Virus record (IMG/VR): IMGVR_UViG_3300022874_000051
Span: 1 to 22,552 of that record
DNA from: a virus
Reading direction: 5' to 3' (one strand)
DNA length: 22,552 nucleotides
Of the stretch, positions 3,987 to 19,467 are shown piece by piece. The stretch's first letter is position 1, and every line of letters starts with the position of its first letter. Position numbers and translations under genes: made by a program. The notes beneath the pieces are model-generated. The model worked only from the letters and a program-made list of their open reading frames with translations. It was not told the origin of the DNA and made no database searches.

Positions 3987-4964
3987 ATGGGTAATAATAT
4001 TGCAATTATGCCGGATGAAGTCCTAACGAACTTATTCCGTGGCTATATGCCAAAAGATCAGAGTTTTATACATGACATGATTTTACCAACAATTAGTGTT
4101 GGATCAAAAGACGGTCAGGTTATCAATTCTGGAACTACATCACAAGAATTTTTGAAAGTTTATCATGACGTTATAGTGGGAAGAACAAAATCTCCAGAAA
4201 TTAACGTTCAATTAACTAAGGCAGATGCTTGGCACACAGAGAAGCATTCATTGAAGATTATGGTTACAAAAGACGATGGTCTTAAGTTCAGTAATAGTGA
4301 TTGGAGAGCGGGCATGAGGGACGCTGAAATCATGTTTACTAAAATGTTAAGAAGCGCAGTGTTAATGGGTAAAGAGTATGCAATAGCAGATGCTTTATTT
4401 AGTACATCAAACATTACTAATAATGTTACTTTATCAGGTGCAGACCAGTGGAGTGATTTTGTTAATTCTGACCCAATTGGTGATGTAAGAACGGCTAAAC
4501 AGACAATCAGAAGTGCAGCTCACATGAAAGCTAATGTTGGGATTATGGGTATTGAGGTATTTGAAATTATACAAGACCACCCACAAATCAAGAAAACTAA
4601 CGGTATTGCTCCAGATGGAACAGTTCCAGTTAGATCACTTACAGAAGCTGAAGTAGCAAAAGCATTCGGTTTAGAAAAACTAATAGTTGGTGACGTTCAA
4701 TATGAAACTGCTATTAAAGGAGCAACTTCAAGTCTAACTGAAGTATGGGGTAAAGGTATGCTATTGGCATATGTTAACCAAGATCCACAACCACAAGAAT
4801 TTCAACGTTCTTTGGGTTACAGTTTTGTTTTAGATGATGCTGAAGTAGATTCGTATGATAATACAGACCCTAAATATTCTAAGTTCGTAAGAATGGAAGA
4901 AGAATATGATGATGTTTTATTAGACGTAACAGCAGCTTATTATATAGACGCTGTAGTAGCGTAA
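3987..4964 (+). CDS. Major capsid protein (HK97 fold)
   Basis: This 325-residue protein has the length and order expected of an HK97-fold capsid subunit. It begins with a short helical arm, continues with a long beta-hairpin-like region (FLKVYHDVIVGRT), a long spine-helix candidate (GMRDAEIMFTKMLRSAVLMG), the helical stretch DVRTAKQTIRSAAH, and an A-domain-like core with ANVGIMGIEVFEII and WGKGMLLAYV, then ends in an acidic strand-rich tail. It lacks an N-terminal delta domain, which fits a separate scaffold. AAAGGAG precedes the ATG. The location after protease, scaffold and decoration genes makes the call strong even though the family assignment is by pattern. Confidence 0.85.
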   Translation: MGNNIAIMPDEVLTNLFRGYMPKDQSFIHDMILPTISVGSKDGQVINSGTTSQEFLKVYHDVIVGRTKSPEINVQLTKADAWHTEKHSLKIMVTKDDGLKFSNSDWRAGMRDAEIMFTKMLRSAVLMGKEYAIADALFSTSNITNNVTLSGADQWSDFVNSDPIGDVRTAKQTIRSAAHMKANVGIMGIEVFEIIQDHPQIKKTNGIAPDGTVPVRSLTEAEVAKAFGLEKLIVGDVQYETAIKGATSSLTEVWGKGMLLAYVNQDPQPQEFQRSLGYSFVLDDAEVDSYDNTDPKYSKFVRMEEEYDDVLLDVTAAYYIDAVVA

Positions 4965-9268: not shown

Positions 9269-9634
9269 ATGGCAAAATTATATGAACTAGTAAGTCAACC
9301 AGTAGGTAATACATTTAAGTTAACTATTGGCGAAGTAACTAAAGAATTGACGCTAAGTCGTTTTGATTTAGCAAAAATGATTGAGTATGAAAAAAGAGGA
9401 CAATCCATGGAACAGCTTATGGAAAATATGCAGAATCAACCTGCTACATGGGCTACACAGGTAGGATGGGATTTGTTAGTAGAGAAGGACGAGTTTAATG
9501 ACAGTATTGATGTCTTTAGGTCGTTGCTGGATATAGAAACTTTAAATGTTTTAGGAGAAGCTTTGATGTTAACAATCGAAGATTCAAGACCTAACCCAAA
9601 AAACGACAAGGGAGTACAGACTCAGAAGAAGTAG
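9269..9634 (+). CDS. Tail assembly chaperone, short (G-like) form
   Basis: This 121-residue protein is the counterpart of lambda gpG, a cytoplasmic chaperone that coats the tape measure before tube polymerisation and is not part of the virion. Features are a beta hairpin start (YELVSQPVGNTFKLTIGEV), then helices with DLAKMIEYEKRGQSMEQLM and a LDIETLNVLGEALMLTIED segment. It ends in a lysine-rich tail at a TAG. A slippery heptamer at 9598-9604, 30 bases before this stop, leads ribosomes into a downstream frame. The AGGAGAG-type site precedes the ATG. Position between tail tube and tape measure genes and the frameshift leave little doubt. Confidence 0.85.
   Translation: MAKLYELVSQPVGNTFKLTIGEVTKELTLSRFDLAKMIEYEKRGQSMEQLMENMQNQPATWATQVGWDLLVEKDEFNDSIDVFRSLLDIETLNVLGEALMLTIEDSRPNPKNDKGVQTQKK
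9598..9604 (+). promoter_or_regulatory. Programmed -1 ribosomal frameshift site, A AAA AAC
   Basis: The heptamer AAAAAAC lies in the exact register X XXY YYZ relative to the chaperone frame (A, then AAA and AAC codons). Both tRNAs can re-pair after a one-base back-slip. It is the only slippery heptamer in the short interval (9595-9634) where the two frames overlap. No obvious stable hairpin or upstream Shine-Dalgarno stimulator was recognised by eye. Confidence 0.85.
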
Positions 9635-9945
9635 GTGCTCCAGAGATTGAATGGAACGAAATAGTTTTTAAGTTATGTCACCAATTGAAGATGTCTCCAC
9701 AAGAGATTCTGACGTTTACGTTTAAAGAGGTATATTACACATTAAAATATCTAAGAAAAGCGGAAGCGCTAGAATTGGATACTAAGTTAAAGATAGCGGG
9801 CAGCAAAAAGGGTTACGAGGGACTGAACGCTATTTTAGCTGAGGAAGAAATGGAGATGTCTGATCCTGTTGATACAGATGAGAAATCTCCAGAGAATATA
9901 GCTTTGTTGGAGAACATTACTAATATAGTTCAAAAAGGAAAATAA
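9604..9945 (+). CDS. T-like extension of the chaperone, reached by -1 frameshift
   Basis: This is the second part of a G-T-type fusion. Slippage at A AAA AAC makes the ribosome reread base 9604, so codons continue CGA CAA GGG and then read 113 residues to the TAA at 9943-9945. The fused product would be about 225 residues (112 from the first frame plus 113). This frame is open only from 9595, just before the slippery site, and has no convincing start of its own: the only initiators inside it are a TTG at 9685 and an ATG at 9691 without a ribosome binding site. The extension contains EIEWNEIVFKLCHQL, MSPQEILTFTF and a helix with LKYLRKAEALELDTKL, like T-type domains that bind tail tube protein. 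Confidence 0.8.
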   Translation, partial: RQGSTDSEEVGAPEIEWNEIVFKLCHQLKMSPQEILTFTFKEVYYTLKYLRKAEALELDTKLKIAGSKKGYEGLNAILAEEEMEMSDPVDTDEKSPENIALLENITNIVQKGK

Positions 9946-9946
9946 T

Positions 9947-12364
9947 ATGGGTATGGCAGGATTGACCGATAGTGTAACAGTAAAATTTAGAGGGGATACT
10001 ACCCAATTAGTAGGCTCTATGAATAGAATGCTTACTAAATTCAGTCAGTTTAGCAATACCATGGGTGGGGCTTCTAGAGCTAGTTCAAGGTATGCTGGCT
10101 CTACTAATCTACTTAGCGGCAGTATTGTGGGAGCTATAATTAGGCTTTATGCTTATCGAGCTGCTATTAATGCTGTTAAGCAGACGTTCATGCAGAGTTT
10201 TAAAGCGGTTGAGAAGTTCAATATGGACGTAGCACAGAGTGCTGCTCTAGTTACATCCTTCGTTGCTAGAAAAGGTACTGATGACCTTGCTGGTGCGTTT
10301 CAGCAATCTTACAAATATGCCCACGATCTTCAGTTAACATTAATAGAAATAAATAAAGATACGTTGGCTAATAGACATCAGATGTCATTAGTTAATAGAG
10401 AGCTACAGAAGCAGGGAGTTTTCTTAGATTTAAATAATGCAAAACAGATAAAAGGATTTAAGACTATTGTTAATACTATTGCTGTATTAACTGCTGGTAT
10501 GCCTAATCAGAATATACAGTATGCGCAAGAAATGCGCGCAGTTATGGAGGGACTAGCAAGACAAGGTACAACTTTATCTTTGTTCTTAAAGGCTCAGTTG
10601 GGTCCTACATGGAGAGATATAACAGCTCAATGGAAGAAGGACGGAAATTTCTTAGAAAAACTAGCTAGTTATTTAAAAGGATTTGATGAAGCTTCTTTAA
10701 AGTTTAAAATGACATGGGCTGCTATAGGGTCTGCTATTTCTACTACGGTAGAGAATATACAGAGATTAGCCTTTGCTGATTCCTTTAAAATAATTCTAAA
10801 GAAGCTAAAATCAGTTAACGATATTTTAGAAGATAATACTTATAAGATTTCAGAAAAGATACACGGATTTTGGAATGGTATAGCCGCTGCTATTGAAGCC
10901 ATGGATATGAAGAAACTAAAAGACTTCTCAAACGTATTGTTTGATTTAGTTATAGTTCTAGCTCTATTTAAGACGGTTTCTATGGTTAAGGGCGTTATAT
11001 ACGGTATAGCTGGCGCATTATCAGTGTTGGCTGCTGGTGGATTAATGGCTGGGATACTTAGTTTATCTGTTTCTCTTGGTATATTTTATGTAGCTATTGT
11101 TATGGCATCTGGAGGAATAGAAAAATTTCAAAAGATAATGAAGAAGGCTGACATTGAAAATAAAATAAAGACCCTTAATAATGCTCTATCACAAGGAAAA
11201 GTAAAAAGCGGTTGGGCATGGGAAGATTGGGGGGCTATATTTGGAATAACAGAAAGAAAGTATGAGCCACTTACCCCTAAAGAAATAGAAGCTACAAATA
11301 AAAAGTTACAAGCATTGCAAGTTACTTTAGCTAAATTTGAGACTGATAATCCTGGCGTTACAACTAATACACCTATGGATGCATTCATAGGAAACTTAAC
11401 AGAACATTTAAAGGATGGTTCCGAATCGTTTATAAAATATATTAAAGAGTTTAAAGGTTCTTATGCTGAGTTAAAGAATACTCTATTCGAGGGGGTTAAC
11501 GGAAAGGGAGGAAAAGCAGACGCTCCTCCAACGTTGCTTACTTATTTTGATGATGTTAAAACAAGGTTTAAAGATTTTTTAGTTGATGTTTTAGATATAA
11601 GAAAAAAACTAGGTGAGGCAATGTCTGATATGTTTTTTGAGTTATTCACAAACACAGAAAAAGATAAGATAAACGAGAAGTTAGGGGAAGACCTAGCGGA
11701 TATAGATTTAGCTTCAAATTTAAAAAGAGAAGATTTATTAGAGGATTATAACACTAAAGTATTTACATCTTTTGAAGAGCGTAGGGCAGCTTATAAACAG
11801 TTACAAGATGACTTGGCTGATTTGGATAAGAAAAGACAAAGAGATATAGACGAGGCTGAGAGACAAGCCAAGAAGGACAGGGATAAGAATGCTGTTACCT
11901 TAACCAAATTTTTTAAAACATTATGGGAAACTATTCTGGATTTAATATATAAGAAGATAGCTGACTTCTTAGCTACTGAAATTATTGCATTCTTTATAGA
12001 TTTTTTTCTCCCAGGAGTTGGCAGCCTTATAAAAACAATGCTTCGTCTGGGATCAGGAGGGGCTGAAGGTCCAATGCAAGCAGATGGTAGTTTTGCCACT
12101 GGAACTGATTATGTTCCTAGAGATATGGTAGCAAATATACATAAAGGTGAGATGATTATACCCGCATCTCAAGCAGCCGATATAAGGGCTGGGTCATCTG
12201 TAGGAGATACAACAGGCATGCTGGCTACAATATCTTCTAAACTATCTGCCATAGGACAGATAGCAAAAGAAAAGGGTACTATGATAATCGGTGATACAGA
12301 ATTAAGGATATTGACTAAAGCAATCAATAATCAAAACTTCTTAATTTCTGAGATGGGAGTATAA
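9947..12364 (+). CDS. Tail tape measure protein
   Basis: This 805-residue protein sets tail length and is thought to pass into the host membrane on DNA ejection. The N-terminal part (SVTVKFRGDTTQLVGSMNRMLTKF) is typical of tape measures, as are long amphipathic helices throughout. Residues about 328-388 form a strongly hydrophobic block with several potential membrane segments (LVIVLALFKTVSMVKGVIYG and following). A charged coiled-coil candidate lies near 615-650, another hydrophobic helix near 665-690, and residues about 716-746 contain GTDYVPRDMVANIHKGEMII, a common motif at the tape measure C-terminus. At roughly 1.5 angstrom per helical residue the tail would be near 120 nm, an inference. 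It starts two bases after the chaperone stop. An ATG two codons downstream is an alternative start. Confidence 0.9.
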   Translation: MGMAGLTDSVTVKFRGDTTQLVGSMNRMLTKFSQFSNTMGGASRASSRYAGSTNLLSGSIVGAIIRLYAYRAAINAVKQTFMQSFKAVEKFNMDVAQSAALVTSFVARKGTDDLAGAFQQSYKYAHDLQLTLIEINKDTLANRHQMSLVNRELQKQGVFLDLNNAKQIKGFKTIVNTIAVLTAGMPNQNIQYAQEMRAVMEGLARQGTTLSLFLKAQLGPTWRDITAQWKKDGNFLEKLASYLKGFDEASLKFKMTWAAIGSAISTTVENIQRLAFADSFKIILKKLKSVNDILEDNTYKISEKIHGFWNGIAAAIEAMDMKKLKDFSNVLFDLVIVLALFKTVSMVKGVIYGIAGALSVLAAGGLMAGILSLSVSLGIFYVAIVMASGGIEKFQKIMKKADIENKIKTLNNALSQGKVKSGWAWEDWGAIFGITERKYEPLTPKEIEATNKKLQALQVTLAKFETDNPGVTTNTPMDAFIGNLTEHLKDGSESFIKYIKEFKGSYAELKNTLFEGVNGKGGKADAPPTLLTYFDDVKTRFKDFLVDVLDIRKKLGEAMSDMFFELFTNTEKDKINEKLGEDLADIDLASNLKREDLLEDYNTKVFTSFEERRAAYKQLQDDLADLDKKRQRDIDEAERQAKKDRDKNAVTLTKFFKTLWETILDLIYKKIADFLATEIIAFFIDFFLPGVGSLIKTMLRLGSGGAEGPMQADGSFATGTDYVPRDMVANIHKGEMIIPASQAADIRAGSSVGDTTGMLATISSKLSAIGQIAKEKGTMIIGDTELRILTKAINNQNFLISEMGV

Positions 12365-12365
12365 T

Positions 12366-13253
12366 ATGACATTTCAACCAGAATTTTGTCAATCAAATTA
12401 CGCTGACTTAAATGTCAATACTAACTTTACATTAACTTTGTTACCAGCTGTTAATTGGTATGAGGTAGATAAGAAATTAATATACGATCACAGGTCTGAC
12501 CGTCTCTTATACACAACAGGGGCTGATGATGATACTACTTCAGTTTATATTACCTTTGATATGGGCGGTATAAACTATATAACTGCTATTAAGTTACTAA
12601 AGATAAACGCTAAATCAGGGTCAATAGAAGTAAGTGATGATAATGCTACATGGTCTACCTTGTATTCGTTCACAACTAATACTTTATCTAGTATACATTG
12701 GTATACAGATGCGTTAACAGGTGTTGAGTATGTACAATTAGACGATGGTTCTTTAGTACTTACTGCTGCTGGTGAAAGAATAGAAGTGGAGAGCGCTAAT
12801 CATGGTAGATATATTAGAGTAACTCTTACTGCTACACAGACACCAGACCAAGAAAAATATATTGGTGAATTGTACATAGGTCAAAGAGAAGCAAAAATAA
12901 TTAAGGGTAAGGTTATAAACTATAGTGAACAAGTAACTGACCCTAAAGCATCTACGTATGAAGATTATAATGGAACTATGGTTAAGAATAGACGACAGGC
13001 TCAATACAATTCTAGCATGACTATTATGAGACCTGATGCTGATGAGTCTGCCTTCTTAAAATCAATAGAAATTAACGGTGGGATATATGATTTTTTCCCT
13101 TGTCCTGATACAGGTTCTGATATTGATAACACATTATCTATAGATGATATACATTATGTTGTTGCTAGTGGGTCTTATGGTAGAAATCAATACGGCAATA
13201 AGACCAAAGGTATTGCTGAAATAAGTTTAGTGGAGAGTAAAGTTGTTAACTAG
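12366..13253 (+). CDS. Distal tail protein with F5/8-type C-like domain
   Basis: This 295-residue protein follows the tape measure, the position of the distal tail protein that forms the ring at the tail tip. Residues about 40-172 look like a discoidin/galactose-binding jelly roll: VYITFDMGGINYITAIKLLK, GSIEVSDDNATWSTLYSF and GRYIRVTLTAT match the usual order of strand, SDDg-tW and fRYIRl segments. Residues about 177-292 (KGKVINYSEQVTD, YNSSMTIMRPDADESAF, IYDFFPCPD, GIAEISLVE) form a second beta domain fitting a tail ring. The jelly roll could bind host surface sugars. It starts two bases after the tape measure stop, and overlaps the hub gene by 11 bases. Confidence 0.65.
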   Translation: MTFQPEFCQSNYADLNVNTNFTLTLLPAVNWYEVDKKLIYDHRSDRLLYTTGADDDTTSVYITFDMGGINYITAIKLLKINAKSGSIEVSDDNATWSTLYSFTTNTLSSIHWYTDALTGVEYVQLDDGSLVLTAAGERIEVESANHGRYIRVTLTATQTPDQEKYIGELYIGQREAKIIKGKVINYSEQVTDPKASTYEDYNGTMVKNRRQAQYNSSMTIMRPDADESAFLKSIEINGGIYDFFPCPDTGSDIDNTLSIDDIHYVVASGSYGRNQYGNKTKGIAEISLVESKVVN

Positions 13254-14823
13254 AACTAACCAAAAAGTATTTAGAGTAGAGATTAAGCGACGAGTTGGTA
13301 ACCAAGATAATCTTGTAGACGGATTAGTGTGGGAACCTGAGTGGCAAGATGTTACTTCTTTATTTGTAGAGAGAGTCAGTGGAGTATCAGTTGATTTAGA
13401 TGACCAAAAACTTGAAGGAAAGTTTGAGCAGACATCTACTACACTAAGATTTACTAACGAGTTAGGTTCGTTTAATCCACAAGGAACTGTTGATTCACTA
13501 TGGACTGACAGTACAGGGGTAAAAACATACTATATGTATCACAGTAGACTAAGGTTTTATGAGTTTTATGAGTATGAAGAATCTATTGCAGATGGTGAAG
13601 AGATAGAACGTCTTCCTTTAATCGATGGTGTACTTACTTTAGAACCTAAATATAAAGACGGTTTCATATGTGAGATGCTTGTAAACTCTAAATTGGATAT
13701 GTTAAGAGATCATTATATTTTAGAAAACATTACGAGTAGAGTTAAGAGAACAAGCGGGCAATCCATAATACAGTATGTAAAAGATATATTTGATAATTAT
13801 TATCCAGAATTAGGAATTAATTCATTAGGCGGATTCCTAAGGAAAGAAATTATATATGATGATGTAACTCCTTATAGCGATAGTTTATTAGCTATGATGA
13901 ATACTATAGCTACCGACGGTGGGGGTATAGCTGGTCTTACAAGAGGAAACGATTTATTCTTTACTTACTTTGGGGCTACTATTGTTGATAAAGAAAACTT
14001 TCAAGATGACTCCGATTGTATAGCCTTGTATTCTATGGATGCAACTGATTATGATGGTGGTACAGGAACGTCTATAGTTGACCAGACAGGTAATGGGAAT
14101 ACCTTAAGTATTGATAATACGGTTGATGATTACTGGGCTCCAGGAGTTTTTGGATATGCAGCTAATAACTGGTACAGAGCTGAGACTGATATATTCTCAG
14201 GTTTAGGAAGCTATACAATAGAGATGATGGTATCTTCTAAAATAAACAGACTTCCTATTAAAGATATAACATATGGGTTTACCACGTATAAGTATTATCC
14301 GTTGTTTGTATGGACTTATGATGCTAATGATAATTTAGGGTTTGCTAACGAGACAGGTTCAGGTCATAAGTTTGAGGGTTTTATGGTTGATGAAAATGGT
14401 GATGTAAACTATGTTACAGGCACAACAGCATTTTCTTTTGGGTATGGGTATTACATATCTGAAATTACTAACGAGCCTATAGGATATACTTTAGGCGAAG
14501 AGTTTATAAGTTATATTGCTATAACAGTTGATACTACAGAAAAATATCTAACGTTTTATATAAATGGGAAACTAATACAGATAGCATATATTGCTGAACT
14601 TGGGTATGTGTCTGCTGATTCTAGTAGAGAAAAGATTGCTGGTTGTGGGTTTAATCAGATGGAAAAAAGCAATGGTGCTACATTAGATTTTACAATTAAA
14701 ACAGATGATCTTGGAGTAATATATTATCACGGAATGAAAATTTCTGATGTTGTAAAGACAAGCTCAGAAATTTTTACACAATACACCCAGCTATTTGGCT
14801 CTGGGTTTGCGTTAGGAGAATAG
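13243..14823 (+). CDS. Baseplate hub, N-terminal part, with LamG-like lectin domain
   Basis: This 526-residue protein seems to be the first part of a tail-tip hub. Residues 1 to about 250 have hub-like sequence: KVFRVEIKRR, VSGVSVDLDDQKLEGKFEQT, LRFTNELGSFNP, LIDGVLTLEPKYKDGFICEM, SGQSIIQYVKDIFDNYYPEL and a segment ending MMNTIATDGGGIAGLTRGND followed by LFFTYF. From about 258 the sequence changes to a concanavalin-like/LamG pattern: CIALYSMDATDYDGG, VDQTGNGNTLSID, YTIEMMV, FISYIAITVDTTEKYLTFYI and NGKLIQIA. The protein then ends without the expected hub C-terminus, which is found in the gene at 15135. The TTG start is chosen because GGAG at 13232-13235 precedes it by 7 bases and no in-frame ATG is nearby. 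Confidence 0.65.
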   Translation: MLTRTNQKVFRVEIKRRVGNQDNLVDGLVWEPEWQDVTSLFVERVSGVSVDLDDQKLEGKFEQTSTTLRFTNELGSFNPQGTVDSLWTDSTGVKTYYMYHSRLRFYEFYEYEESIADGEEIERLPLIDGVLTLEPKYKDGFICEMLVNSKLDMLRDHYILENITSRVKRTSGQSIIQYVKDIFDNYYPELGINSLGGFLRKEIIYDDVTPYSDSLLAMMNTIATDGGGIAGLTRGNDLFFTYFGATIVDKENFQDDSDCIALYSMDATDYDGGTGTSIVDQTGNGNTLSIDNTVDDYWAPGVFGYAANNWYRAETDIFSGLGSYTIEMMVSSKINRLPIKDITYGFTTYKYYPLFVWTYDANDNLGFANETGSGHKFEGFMVDENGDVNYVTGTTAFSFGYGYYISEITNEPIGYTLGEEFISYIAITVDTTEKYLTFYINGKLIQIAYIAELGYVSADSSREKIAGCGFNQMEKSNGATLDFTIKTDDLGVIYYHGMKISDVVKTSSEIFTQYTQLFGSGFALGE

Positions 14824-14824
14824 A

Positions 14825-15124
14825 GTGACAACTGTAACAAATGTATCAGCTTATGCTATTCCGTGGGATACATATAACAGTGCGATTTTAACTGTGACGT
14901 GGGATCAAAGTGATGATGAGGCGGTAACACTTACTTGGAAAAGTGGTGTTACAACTGTTGGAACAGTTTATACCACGCCAAAGGGTGGATTTCCTGCAGG
15001 AGGACAAGGAAAGAATTTTGTTTATTTTAGTGATATGGGTCTTAGCAGCGGTAACTATACTTTATATTGGACTAATCCTGGTGGCACTGTATTGCATTCA
15101 GGGGTAGTTAATATACACCACTAA
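14825..15124 (+). CDS. Small beta protein inserted between hub halves
   Basis: This 99-residue protein is probably a single beta-sandwich domain of Ig or fibronectin type: strands SAILTVTWDQ, AVTLTWKSG, GNYTLYWTNPGGTVLHSG, with a glycine-rich loop (TPKGGFPAGGQGKNF). It starts at GTG one base after the hub stop, with GGAG at 14815-14818, so translation is probably coupled. I do not recognise the family. Its position between two hub-like genes suggests it is a tail-tip component, possibly an accessory binding domain made as a separate chain. Confidence 0.55.
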   Translation: MTTVTNVSAYAIPWDTYNSAILTVTWDQSDDEAVTLTWKSGVTTVGTVYTTPKGGFPAGGQGKNFVYFSDMGLSSGNYTLYWTNPGGTVLHSGVVNIHH

Positions 15125-15134
15125 GGAGATATTA

Positions 15135-16013
15135 ATGGTATTGATACTAGATGATTACGATAAGAATAATATATTAAATCTTACTGGATATACTTCAGGT
15201 GTTCAGCTAGTGCGTAATCTTATTATATTTGATAGCAACACAAGCACTGATGGTTCATTTACATTTTATGTAGAACCGTATGCTACTTCTTTTTCTTTCG
15301 CCATATTTGTTGGTTCTACTGGTTATATGTTTCCAAATAATACTACTCTAAAGGGGTTGGTTATTGCTGTTCATGCTACTACTGCTTTAAGAGAAGACGG
15401 TATAGACATGGAACTATTACAAGACATAACTCTAGAGGGAACTGAATACGCAGAGGTTGTGAGGATTACGTGTGATTATCTTACTGATTATAAAACAATA
15501 GCATGTGAAGTTAATGAGGGTACTGGGTATACTTTTGCTGGTCAGTCGGTGAGGTATTCACAAACAGGTGGTGACTTCTATAGAACATACTTTACTCTAT
15601 TACCTGATGGAGATAATTCAGGGATACTAGCAAGGGACTACACATCTATATTAAATTACGGTTCTAAGATATATTCTTTAGAGAACTATGAAATGCTTAC
15701 CAGTCCTGATGAAAAACAAGCTACATTAGACAATAAACTAGCAGAATTAAAAGATCCAAAGGCAAGGTGTTACTTAGACATACCTTTTGATTATACAGAA
15801 ACAAGTCAAGTAACTCTTTTAGACGAGGTTGAAGTCAGATTGCAGTTACAGAATGTTGGACAATTTGGTAGGTTTAAGGAGGGTGGTCATTATAAGTCTT
15901 GGGATGAGGGTGAAATATATAGATATAAATCATTCTATATTATAGGGATTGACCATGCGCAAGACGGAACCACAACTAGATTGCGATTGATAGAAAAAAT
16001 TAAGGAGGTATAA
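15135..16013 (+). CDS. Baseplate hub, C-terminal part
   Basis: This 292-residue protein looks like the missing C-terminal half of the hub encoded at 13243. The first 35 residues (DDYDKNNILNLTGYTSGVQLVRNLIIF) resemble the strand after the first hub domain in intact homologues, where a Y-d-v-N-v-v pattern follows. Residues about 185-292 contain NYGSKIYSLENYEML, EKQATLDNKLAELKDPKARC, LDIPFD, a TLLDEVEVRLQL strand, and FYIIGIDHAQDGTTTRLRLIE, the usual end of gp27/gpJ-like hub proteins. AAGGAGA precedes the ATG at good spacing, so it is translated on its own. The middle part (about 40-180) is beta-rich and unassigned. Confidence 0.55.
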   Translation: MVLILDDYDKNNILNLTGYTSGVQLVRNLIIFDSNTSTDGSFTFYVEPYATSFSFAIFVGSTGYMFPNNTTLKGLVIAVHATTALREDGIDMELLQDITLEGTEYAEVVRITCDYLTDYKTIACEVNEGTGYTFAGQSVRYSQTGGDFYRTYFTLLPDGDNSGILARDYTSILNYGSKIYSLENYEMLTSPDEKQATLDNKLAELKDPKARCYLDIPFDYTETSQVTLLDEVEVRLQLQNVGQFGRFKEGGHYKSWDEGEIYRYKSFYIIGIDHAQDGTTTRLRLIEKIKEV

Positions 16014-16014
16014 C

Positions 16015-16428
16015 ATGGCACAAATGCATTCAACGGTTATTTCGGCCAACAGTGAGGTAATAGGAAGAAGAATAGATGAGAACTTTGGTTTAAGTACATC
16101 GATAACACCTTCTTTAACACTATCAACTTCAGGCATAGCAGCATTAAACGGTATTACAAGAACAGGAAACATGTACGTAATAAATAGTACAGCTACAACT
16201 ACTCTGTATGGTTTTACAGGAGGTTGTATAGGACAGAGTATAATTATTAAGTCATCAACAGGAGCTACAGTTAATATACATAATAGTACTGGTGCTACAG
16301 GCAACAATATTAAATGGGCATTAGCTACAGGAGTTTTTGTAATTGATAATGTATACGAGAACGCTACGCTTTTGAAGGTTAGTACAGGTACTTATGCTTG
16401 GACAATGACTAGTAGCGTATCTACGTAA
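16015..16428 (+). CDS. Short tail fibre-like protein
   Basis: This 137-residue protein is Thr- and Ser-rich and has the short strand-turn repeats of fibre tips (IAALNGITRTGNMYVINST, TTTLYGFTGGCIGQSIIIKS, NNIKWALATGVFVIDN, ENATLLKVSTGTYAWTM). The N-terminal MAQMHSTVISANSEVI is probably the anchoring segment. AAGGAGGT at 16002-16009 precedes the ATG. Similar modules end many phage fibres with a G-x-I-x-I/L-x-W pattern. Which ligand is bound, if any, cannot be said. Confidence 0.5.
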   Translation: MAQMHSTVISANSEVIGRRIDENFGLSTSITPSLTLSTSGIAALNGITRTGNMYVINSTATTTLYGFTGGCIGQSIIIKSSTGATVNIHNSTGATGNNIKWALATGVFVIDNVYENATLLKVSTGTYAWTMTSSVST

Positions 16429-19117: not shown

Positions 19118-19467
19118 TGACACCAGAATATAATATAACAATAAAACAAAACTCTGATTTTAACGATATTACAATCACGCCTAAGGAAGACGATGGTTCA
19201 GTTGTAGATCTATCTGGATACACTGCTAAGATGCAAGTTAGAAATAGAATAGATGGTACGGAGTTGGATAGTTTAACTACTGAGAACGATAGAATAACTA
19301 TATTAGAAGTAGACGATTTTTGGGATGTTACATTAAAGTTTCCAGCTGTTACTAGTTTAGCTTATGAGTTCACTAGTGGAGTGTACGATTTAATTCTGGT
19401 ATCCAGTAGTCTAAACGATATTTATATACGCGGTTCATTTAATGTTCAGGAAGGGGTTACACTATGA
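19117..19467 (+). CDS. BppU-like small tail/baseplate protein
   Basis: This 116-residue protein is beta-rich. The start YNITIKQNSDFNDITITPK, then VDLSGYTAKMQVRNRIDGTE, a strand WDVTLKFPAVTSLAY, and GVYDLILVSSSLNDIYIRGS followed by a VQEGVTL end match the pattern of small tail proteins related to the BppU N-terminal domain (I-x-G-x-x-f, DLsGy-a-mqvR, Y-YdL, l-GsF-v---vT). It overlaps both neighbours by one and four bases (ATG on the peptidase stop; ATGA with the fibre gene), so it is translationally coupled to the fibre and may be its adaptor. Confidence 0.5.
   Translation: MTPEYNITIKQNSDFNDITITPKEDDGSVVDLSGYTAKMQVRNRIDGTELDSLTTENDRITILEVDDFWDVTLKFPAVTSLAYEFTSGVYDLILVSSSLNDIYIRGSFNVQEGVTL

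Follow-up and report, generated by a model that had tools for sequence, protein, structure and literature searches.

Three consecutive genes that may encode a multi-chain hub at the tail tip of a phage

Three consecutive genes, whose products we term A, B and C, are real and separately translated, and together they probably specify the tail-tip core of a siphophage-type tail, as a divergent member of the known multi-chain hub layout. They lie in a window of 22,552 nucleotides, the whole stretch of DNA analyzed here (positions 1 to 22,552 of record IMGVR_UViG_3300022874_000051). The phage is uncultured and probably of Antarctic-lake origin; the only clear relative that we found, L006, comes from metagenome 3300035698 (Ace Lake, Antarctica).

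Three genes downstream of the tape measure

The genes of the window follow one another in the order TerL, portal, protease, major capsid, connectors, probable tube protein, two chaperone frames, tape measure, probable Dit (distal tail protein), A, B and C. The Dit assignment is made by position and is a probable one. The features needed for the argument are listed below.

9947-12364, plus strand: tape measure protein, 805 aa, with PHROG tape-measure matches at a C-terminal motif (E 1e-4), 48% identical in L006
12366-13253, plus strand: probable Dit, 295 aa, by its position after the tape measure, 65% identical in L006
13232-13237, plus strand: Shine-Dalgarno sequence of A (GGAGAG)
13243-14823, plus strand: protein A, 526 aa, TTG start
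13243-13992, plus strand: A residues 1-250, candidate N-terminal hub part (HDI, possibly some HDII), at the start of the first gene after Dit, the start being conserved in L006
13993-14820, plus strand: A residues 251-526, lectin-like region, with a possible concanavalin-A/galectin-type sandwich at about 285-470 in a low-confidence model
14814-14819, plus strand: Shine-Dalgarno sequence of B (AGGAGA)
14825-15124, plus strand: protein B, 99 aa, GTG start, an orphan that reads as beta-rich, coding bias +0.38 bits/codon
15123-15129, plus strand: Shine-Dalgarno sequence of C (AAGGAGA)
15135-16013, plus strand: protein C, 292 aa, ATG start
15135-15389, plus strand: C residues 1-85, extra N-terminal module, coding bias +0.40, no family match
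15390-16010, plus strand: C residues 86-292, candidate C-terminal hub part by pattern resemblance (NYGSKIYSLEN ... FYIIGIDH ... RLRLIE)

The start codons of A, B and C are each preceded, 5-8 bases upstream, by a Shine-Dalgarno sequence, and the genes are tightly spaced, with 1 base between A and B and 10 bases between B and C. All segments of the three genes show a coding-frame bias of +0.24 to +0.40 bits/codon in frame, the other five frames being negative. The DNA from 13200 to 16030 is present without any difference in a second assembly (IMGVR_UViG_3300025661_000015), and this identity makes a sequencing error unlikely. The three reading frames are as the initial annotation described them, each with a start, its own Shine-Dalgarno sequence and coding bias. 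Its contention that they do not result from a single frameshift holds as well, in view of the separate signals and bias of each frame and the identical second assembly.

Upstream of these genes, the head module is mosaic (3987-4964 and 706-2094), with a capsid protein nearest to those of Mu-like phages (B3, RR1-B), a portal nearest to Arthrobacter siphophages and a TerL nearest to Bacteroidota phages, all at about 25-39% identity. A classical -1 slippery heptamer, A AAA AAC, occupies 9598-9604 in the frame of the 9269-9634 gene; from 9595 onwards the -1 frame is free of stops and continues into the 9685-9945 frame, which matches expectation for a programmed frameshift of tail assembly chaperones. 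In the tape measure, an indel at about 11492-11508 breaks the alignment to the sister assembly, and the protein differs by S328L, the remaining tail being almost identical. Beyond C, the small protein encoded at 19117-19467 matches PHROG 1084 (function unknown) with an E value of 6.6e-14 and, weakly, an L-shaped tail fiber assembly family; its gene precedes a very long fiber-like gene at 19464. A similarity of 8 bits over a short stretch between this protein and C 1-85 was taken as chance.

Close relatives are few. The L006 contig stops after the first 35 residues of A; these are 66% conserved, and the gene likewise starts with TTG and overlaps the Dit gene. The nearest other relative, L027 (IMGVR_UViG_3300033153_010923), shares 46% identity in TerL and matches the portal strongly (368 bits); at 4 kb it is too short for the tail. 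Searches of IMG/VR with the major capsid protein, Dit, tape measure, TerL, endolysin and the hub N terminus returned as near matches only the same phage, L006 and L027, the tail genes occurring in nothing else, and a tape-measure model gave no convincing match in about 1,370 bacterial genomes. No relative with an intact or a split hub was found for comparison, and the history put forward in the initial annotation, in which modules entered a whole hub gene before its chain was broken, has no intact relative behind it and is conjectural.

Lectin-like region of protein A and the two smaller proteins

The initial annotation had seen a LamG-like lectin pattern in A. An AlphaFold2 model of A alone, of mean pLDDT 35, contains a two-sheet sandwich around residues 285-470. 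When this model was submitted to Foldseek, the top matches were nearly all concanavalin-A-like proteins (GH16 enzymes, CBM40 and galectins), with a best E value of 0.012. Consistent with this, VIA-align superposed the lectin-like part of the same model on galectins with a Z score of 5.7 (108 aligned residues, 3.3 Å), although Z scores below 8 can, by the program's own notes, reflect merely a common arrangement. A search of BFVD with the model returned nothing at an E value of 0.001 or better and a few entries with concanavalin-A-like names in its list. The lectin pattern thus receives weak but consistent support, and residues of about 285-470 may be said weakly to resemble, in a predicted structure, a sandwich of the concanavalin-A-like/galectin type. 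Matches of A to the Pfam families PagP and Toxin_R_bind_N fell below cut-off and were taken as chance or as a shared sandwich fold. In the N-terminal half, helices are predicted at residues 150-224.

The probable Dit carries a discoidin/F5-8C-like insert at residues of about 54-157, which matches F5_F8_type_C with an E value of 4.5e-5, below the curated cut-off. This discoidin-like domain may be a second sugar-binding module at the tail tip.

Protein B is matchless in Pfam, PHROG and other libraries. As for C, the model of residues 84-292 has a pLDDT of 40 and is unusable; its structural matches are unrelated proteins, with Z scores of at most 3.3, and none is hub-like.

Hub identity and comparison with known hubs

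Neither A 1-250 nor C has a hub match, or any family match, in Pfam, PHROG, NCBIfam, the PDB or phages. Searching 50,697 phages by tblastn with A, C, A 1-247 and the end of C gave nothing or noise, and single-query hhalign against 632 protein clusters gave background only (the lectin query being incomplete). PF05954 and PF14594, which represent single-chain hubs of the gp27/gpD type, have no match in the window; the PF14594 control genomes were likewise without match, so that the PF14594 result carries no weight. Pairwise hhalign of A and C against known hubs also stayed at background. The power of this single-sequence test was gauged with lambda gpL and gpJ, JBD30 gp50 and gp53, 80alpha Tal, an Arthrobacter phage protein and gpD-type hubs, and the known hubs matched one another within the gpD family only. 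Because verified hubs of different families miss each other too, the empty result for A and C is uninformative either way, and the grounds for a hub assignment are the succession of tape measure, Dit, A, B and C and the sequence pattern. We infer from that pattern, and mainly from gene position, that A 1-250 and C 86-292 may be the start and the end of a hub.

It had been supposed in the initial annotation that related hubs are usually one chain. This fails for lambda, RcGTA, R4C and JBD30, Gram-negative-type siphophages in which the hub is split over two or more chains, small genes lying between them. In most phages a single polypeptide makes up the hub subunit, in lambda up to three, and the site of chain division is a focus of hypervariability (PMC13243795). 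In lambda, gpL contains HDI and gpJ contains HDII-HDIV, K and I lying between the two; RcGTA is arranged in the same way, the HDII-insertion domain there being one that the two chains share, and in both systems the chain break falls within the HDII-insertion region (PMC10721106). The first hub chain of RcGTA and R4C combines a Dit-attachment domain with an oligosaccharide-binding domain (PMC7296036, PMC10276861). In JBD30, two small genes separate the upper baseplate protein, which comes after Dit, from the hub protein (PMC11445458). Multi-chain hubs are an established layout and no anomaly, and the novelty here is modest.

The run of genes from the tape measure through Dit to A, B and C parallels both H-M-L-K-I-J of lambda and gp46...gp49-gp50-gp51-gp52-gp53 of JBD30. 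Lambda gpL-gpK-gpI-gpJ is further alike in the order after Dit, the small genes between the gpL and gpJ hub chains and, on the hub reading proposed here, the decorated break (PMC10721106). However, gpL has an iron-sulfur site, gpJ is 1132 aa long with fiber domains whereas C is 292 aa, and a large lectin-like region is present in A. RcGTA g13-g14-g15 and the R4C hub and megatron share a small gene with our genes and, on the same reading, would also share the Dit-attachment and sugar-binding parts on chain 1 and the rest of the hub on chain 2. They differ in a four-cysteine iron-sulfur site and a megatron of over 1300 aa, and the lectin of A is larger and seemingly of another fold. With JBD30 the resemblance lies in the succession of genes after Dit, from the upper baseplate protein gp50 through the small genes gp51 and gp52 to the hub gp53 (PMC11445458); the differences are a putative metal-binding set of cysteines in gp50 and the length of gp53, 735 aa. 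Single-chain hubs (T4 gp27, T5 pb3, 80alpha Tal and gpD) are similar in total hub content, for which about 250 + 207 residues are proposed here, but consist of one polypeptide, and their sequence similarity to A and C is undetectable by a pairwise test that is powerless across families.

Several traits of the known split hubs are missing. The four conserved iron-sulfur cysteines of the lambda gpL/RcGTA g13 family are absent from A, which has only three cysteines, at positions 143, 259 and 468; so few and so widely spaced, they leave no gpL-type iron-sulfur site. Homologs of gpL/g13 without the iron-sulfur cluster have been reported (PMC13243795), A not being filed in that family. The long fiber or receptor-binding extension of lambda gpJ and the megatron is also absent, C ending directly after its hub-like C terminus. 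Together with the lack of a hub match for A 1-250 and C and of an intact or split relative for comparison, the missing site and the small size of C are points against a hub assignment.

A proposed tail tip and its alternatives

What is present is the gene order of Dit, first chain, small gene and second chain, as a layout in which Dit is placed by position. By analogy with lambda M-L-K-I-J and JBD30 gp49-gp53, it is plausible that the tail tip is built from several chains. Of the tip of several polypeptides proposed in the initial annotation, the three separate chains and the parallel in gene order stand, and their assembly is conjectural. In such an assembly, A, B and C would join non-covalently beneath the Dit ring, as do the chains of lambda (gpL, gpI, gpJ), RcGTA (g13, g15), R4C and JBD30 (gp50, gp53). 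A would dock on Dit through its N-terminal hub domain, its lectin-like domain facing outwards, while C would provide the remaining hub domains and so close the ring and the channel. B would be a small accessory piece, at the place of lambda K/I or RcGTA g14. The lectin of A and the discoidin-like insert of Dit might then mediate initial binding to surface sugars, after which the hub would open.

The alternative that survives best, although we consider it unlikely, is that the role of hub or upper-baseplate protein belongs to A alone, with the lectin as an extension of it, and that C is an accessory protein of the baseplate or tail tip that is unrelated to A. The core of the hub might in that case be unusually small or come from another gene of the window. 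The failure of C to match in any library and the absence of hub-like matches to its model are what this would predict. However, C directly follows A and B and has a hub-like C-terminal pattern, and the first 250 residues of A are short for a complete hub, the gpD-type hubs compared here having 344-389 aa.

Less probable still, and in our view doubtful, is a break unlike that of lambda and RcGTA, with HDI and HDII in A 1-250 and HDIII/HDIV only in C, which would run through the ring-forming core and not between HDI and HDII. The hub ring would then be completed in trans, chain 1 ending after HDII, chain 2 consisting of HDIII/HDIV only, and the lectin, the small beta protein and the extra N-terminal module all sitting at the break. 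On a reading of patterns, the helix-plus-hairpin of A 170-240 (SIIQYVKDIF ... SLLAMMNTIA ... LFFTYF) and the end of C do resemble successive parts of a single-chain hub. However, neither placement is backed by an alignment, the test being powerless, and a C of 292 aa could equally hold HDII-HDIV. If true, the hub would be split at a point reported neither for lambda nor for RcGTA, and its second chain would be very short and lack a central fiber.

Finally, a recently broken hub gene (pseudogene) or an assembly error, to which three successive frames could point, is highly improbable and was rejected on the coding bias, start and Shine-Dalgarno site of each frame, the identity of the two assemblies and the tight packing of the genes.

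Should the multi-chain tail tip that we favor be confirmed, the concept of the multi-chain hub would stay unchanged, and A, B and C would provide one more hub break that serves as an addition site for host-binding modules, in a lineage far from all model phages.
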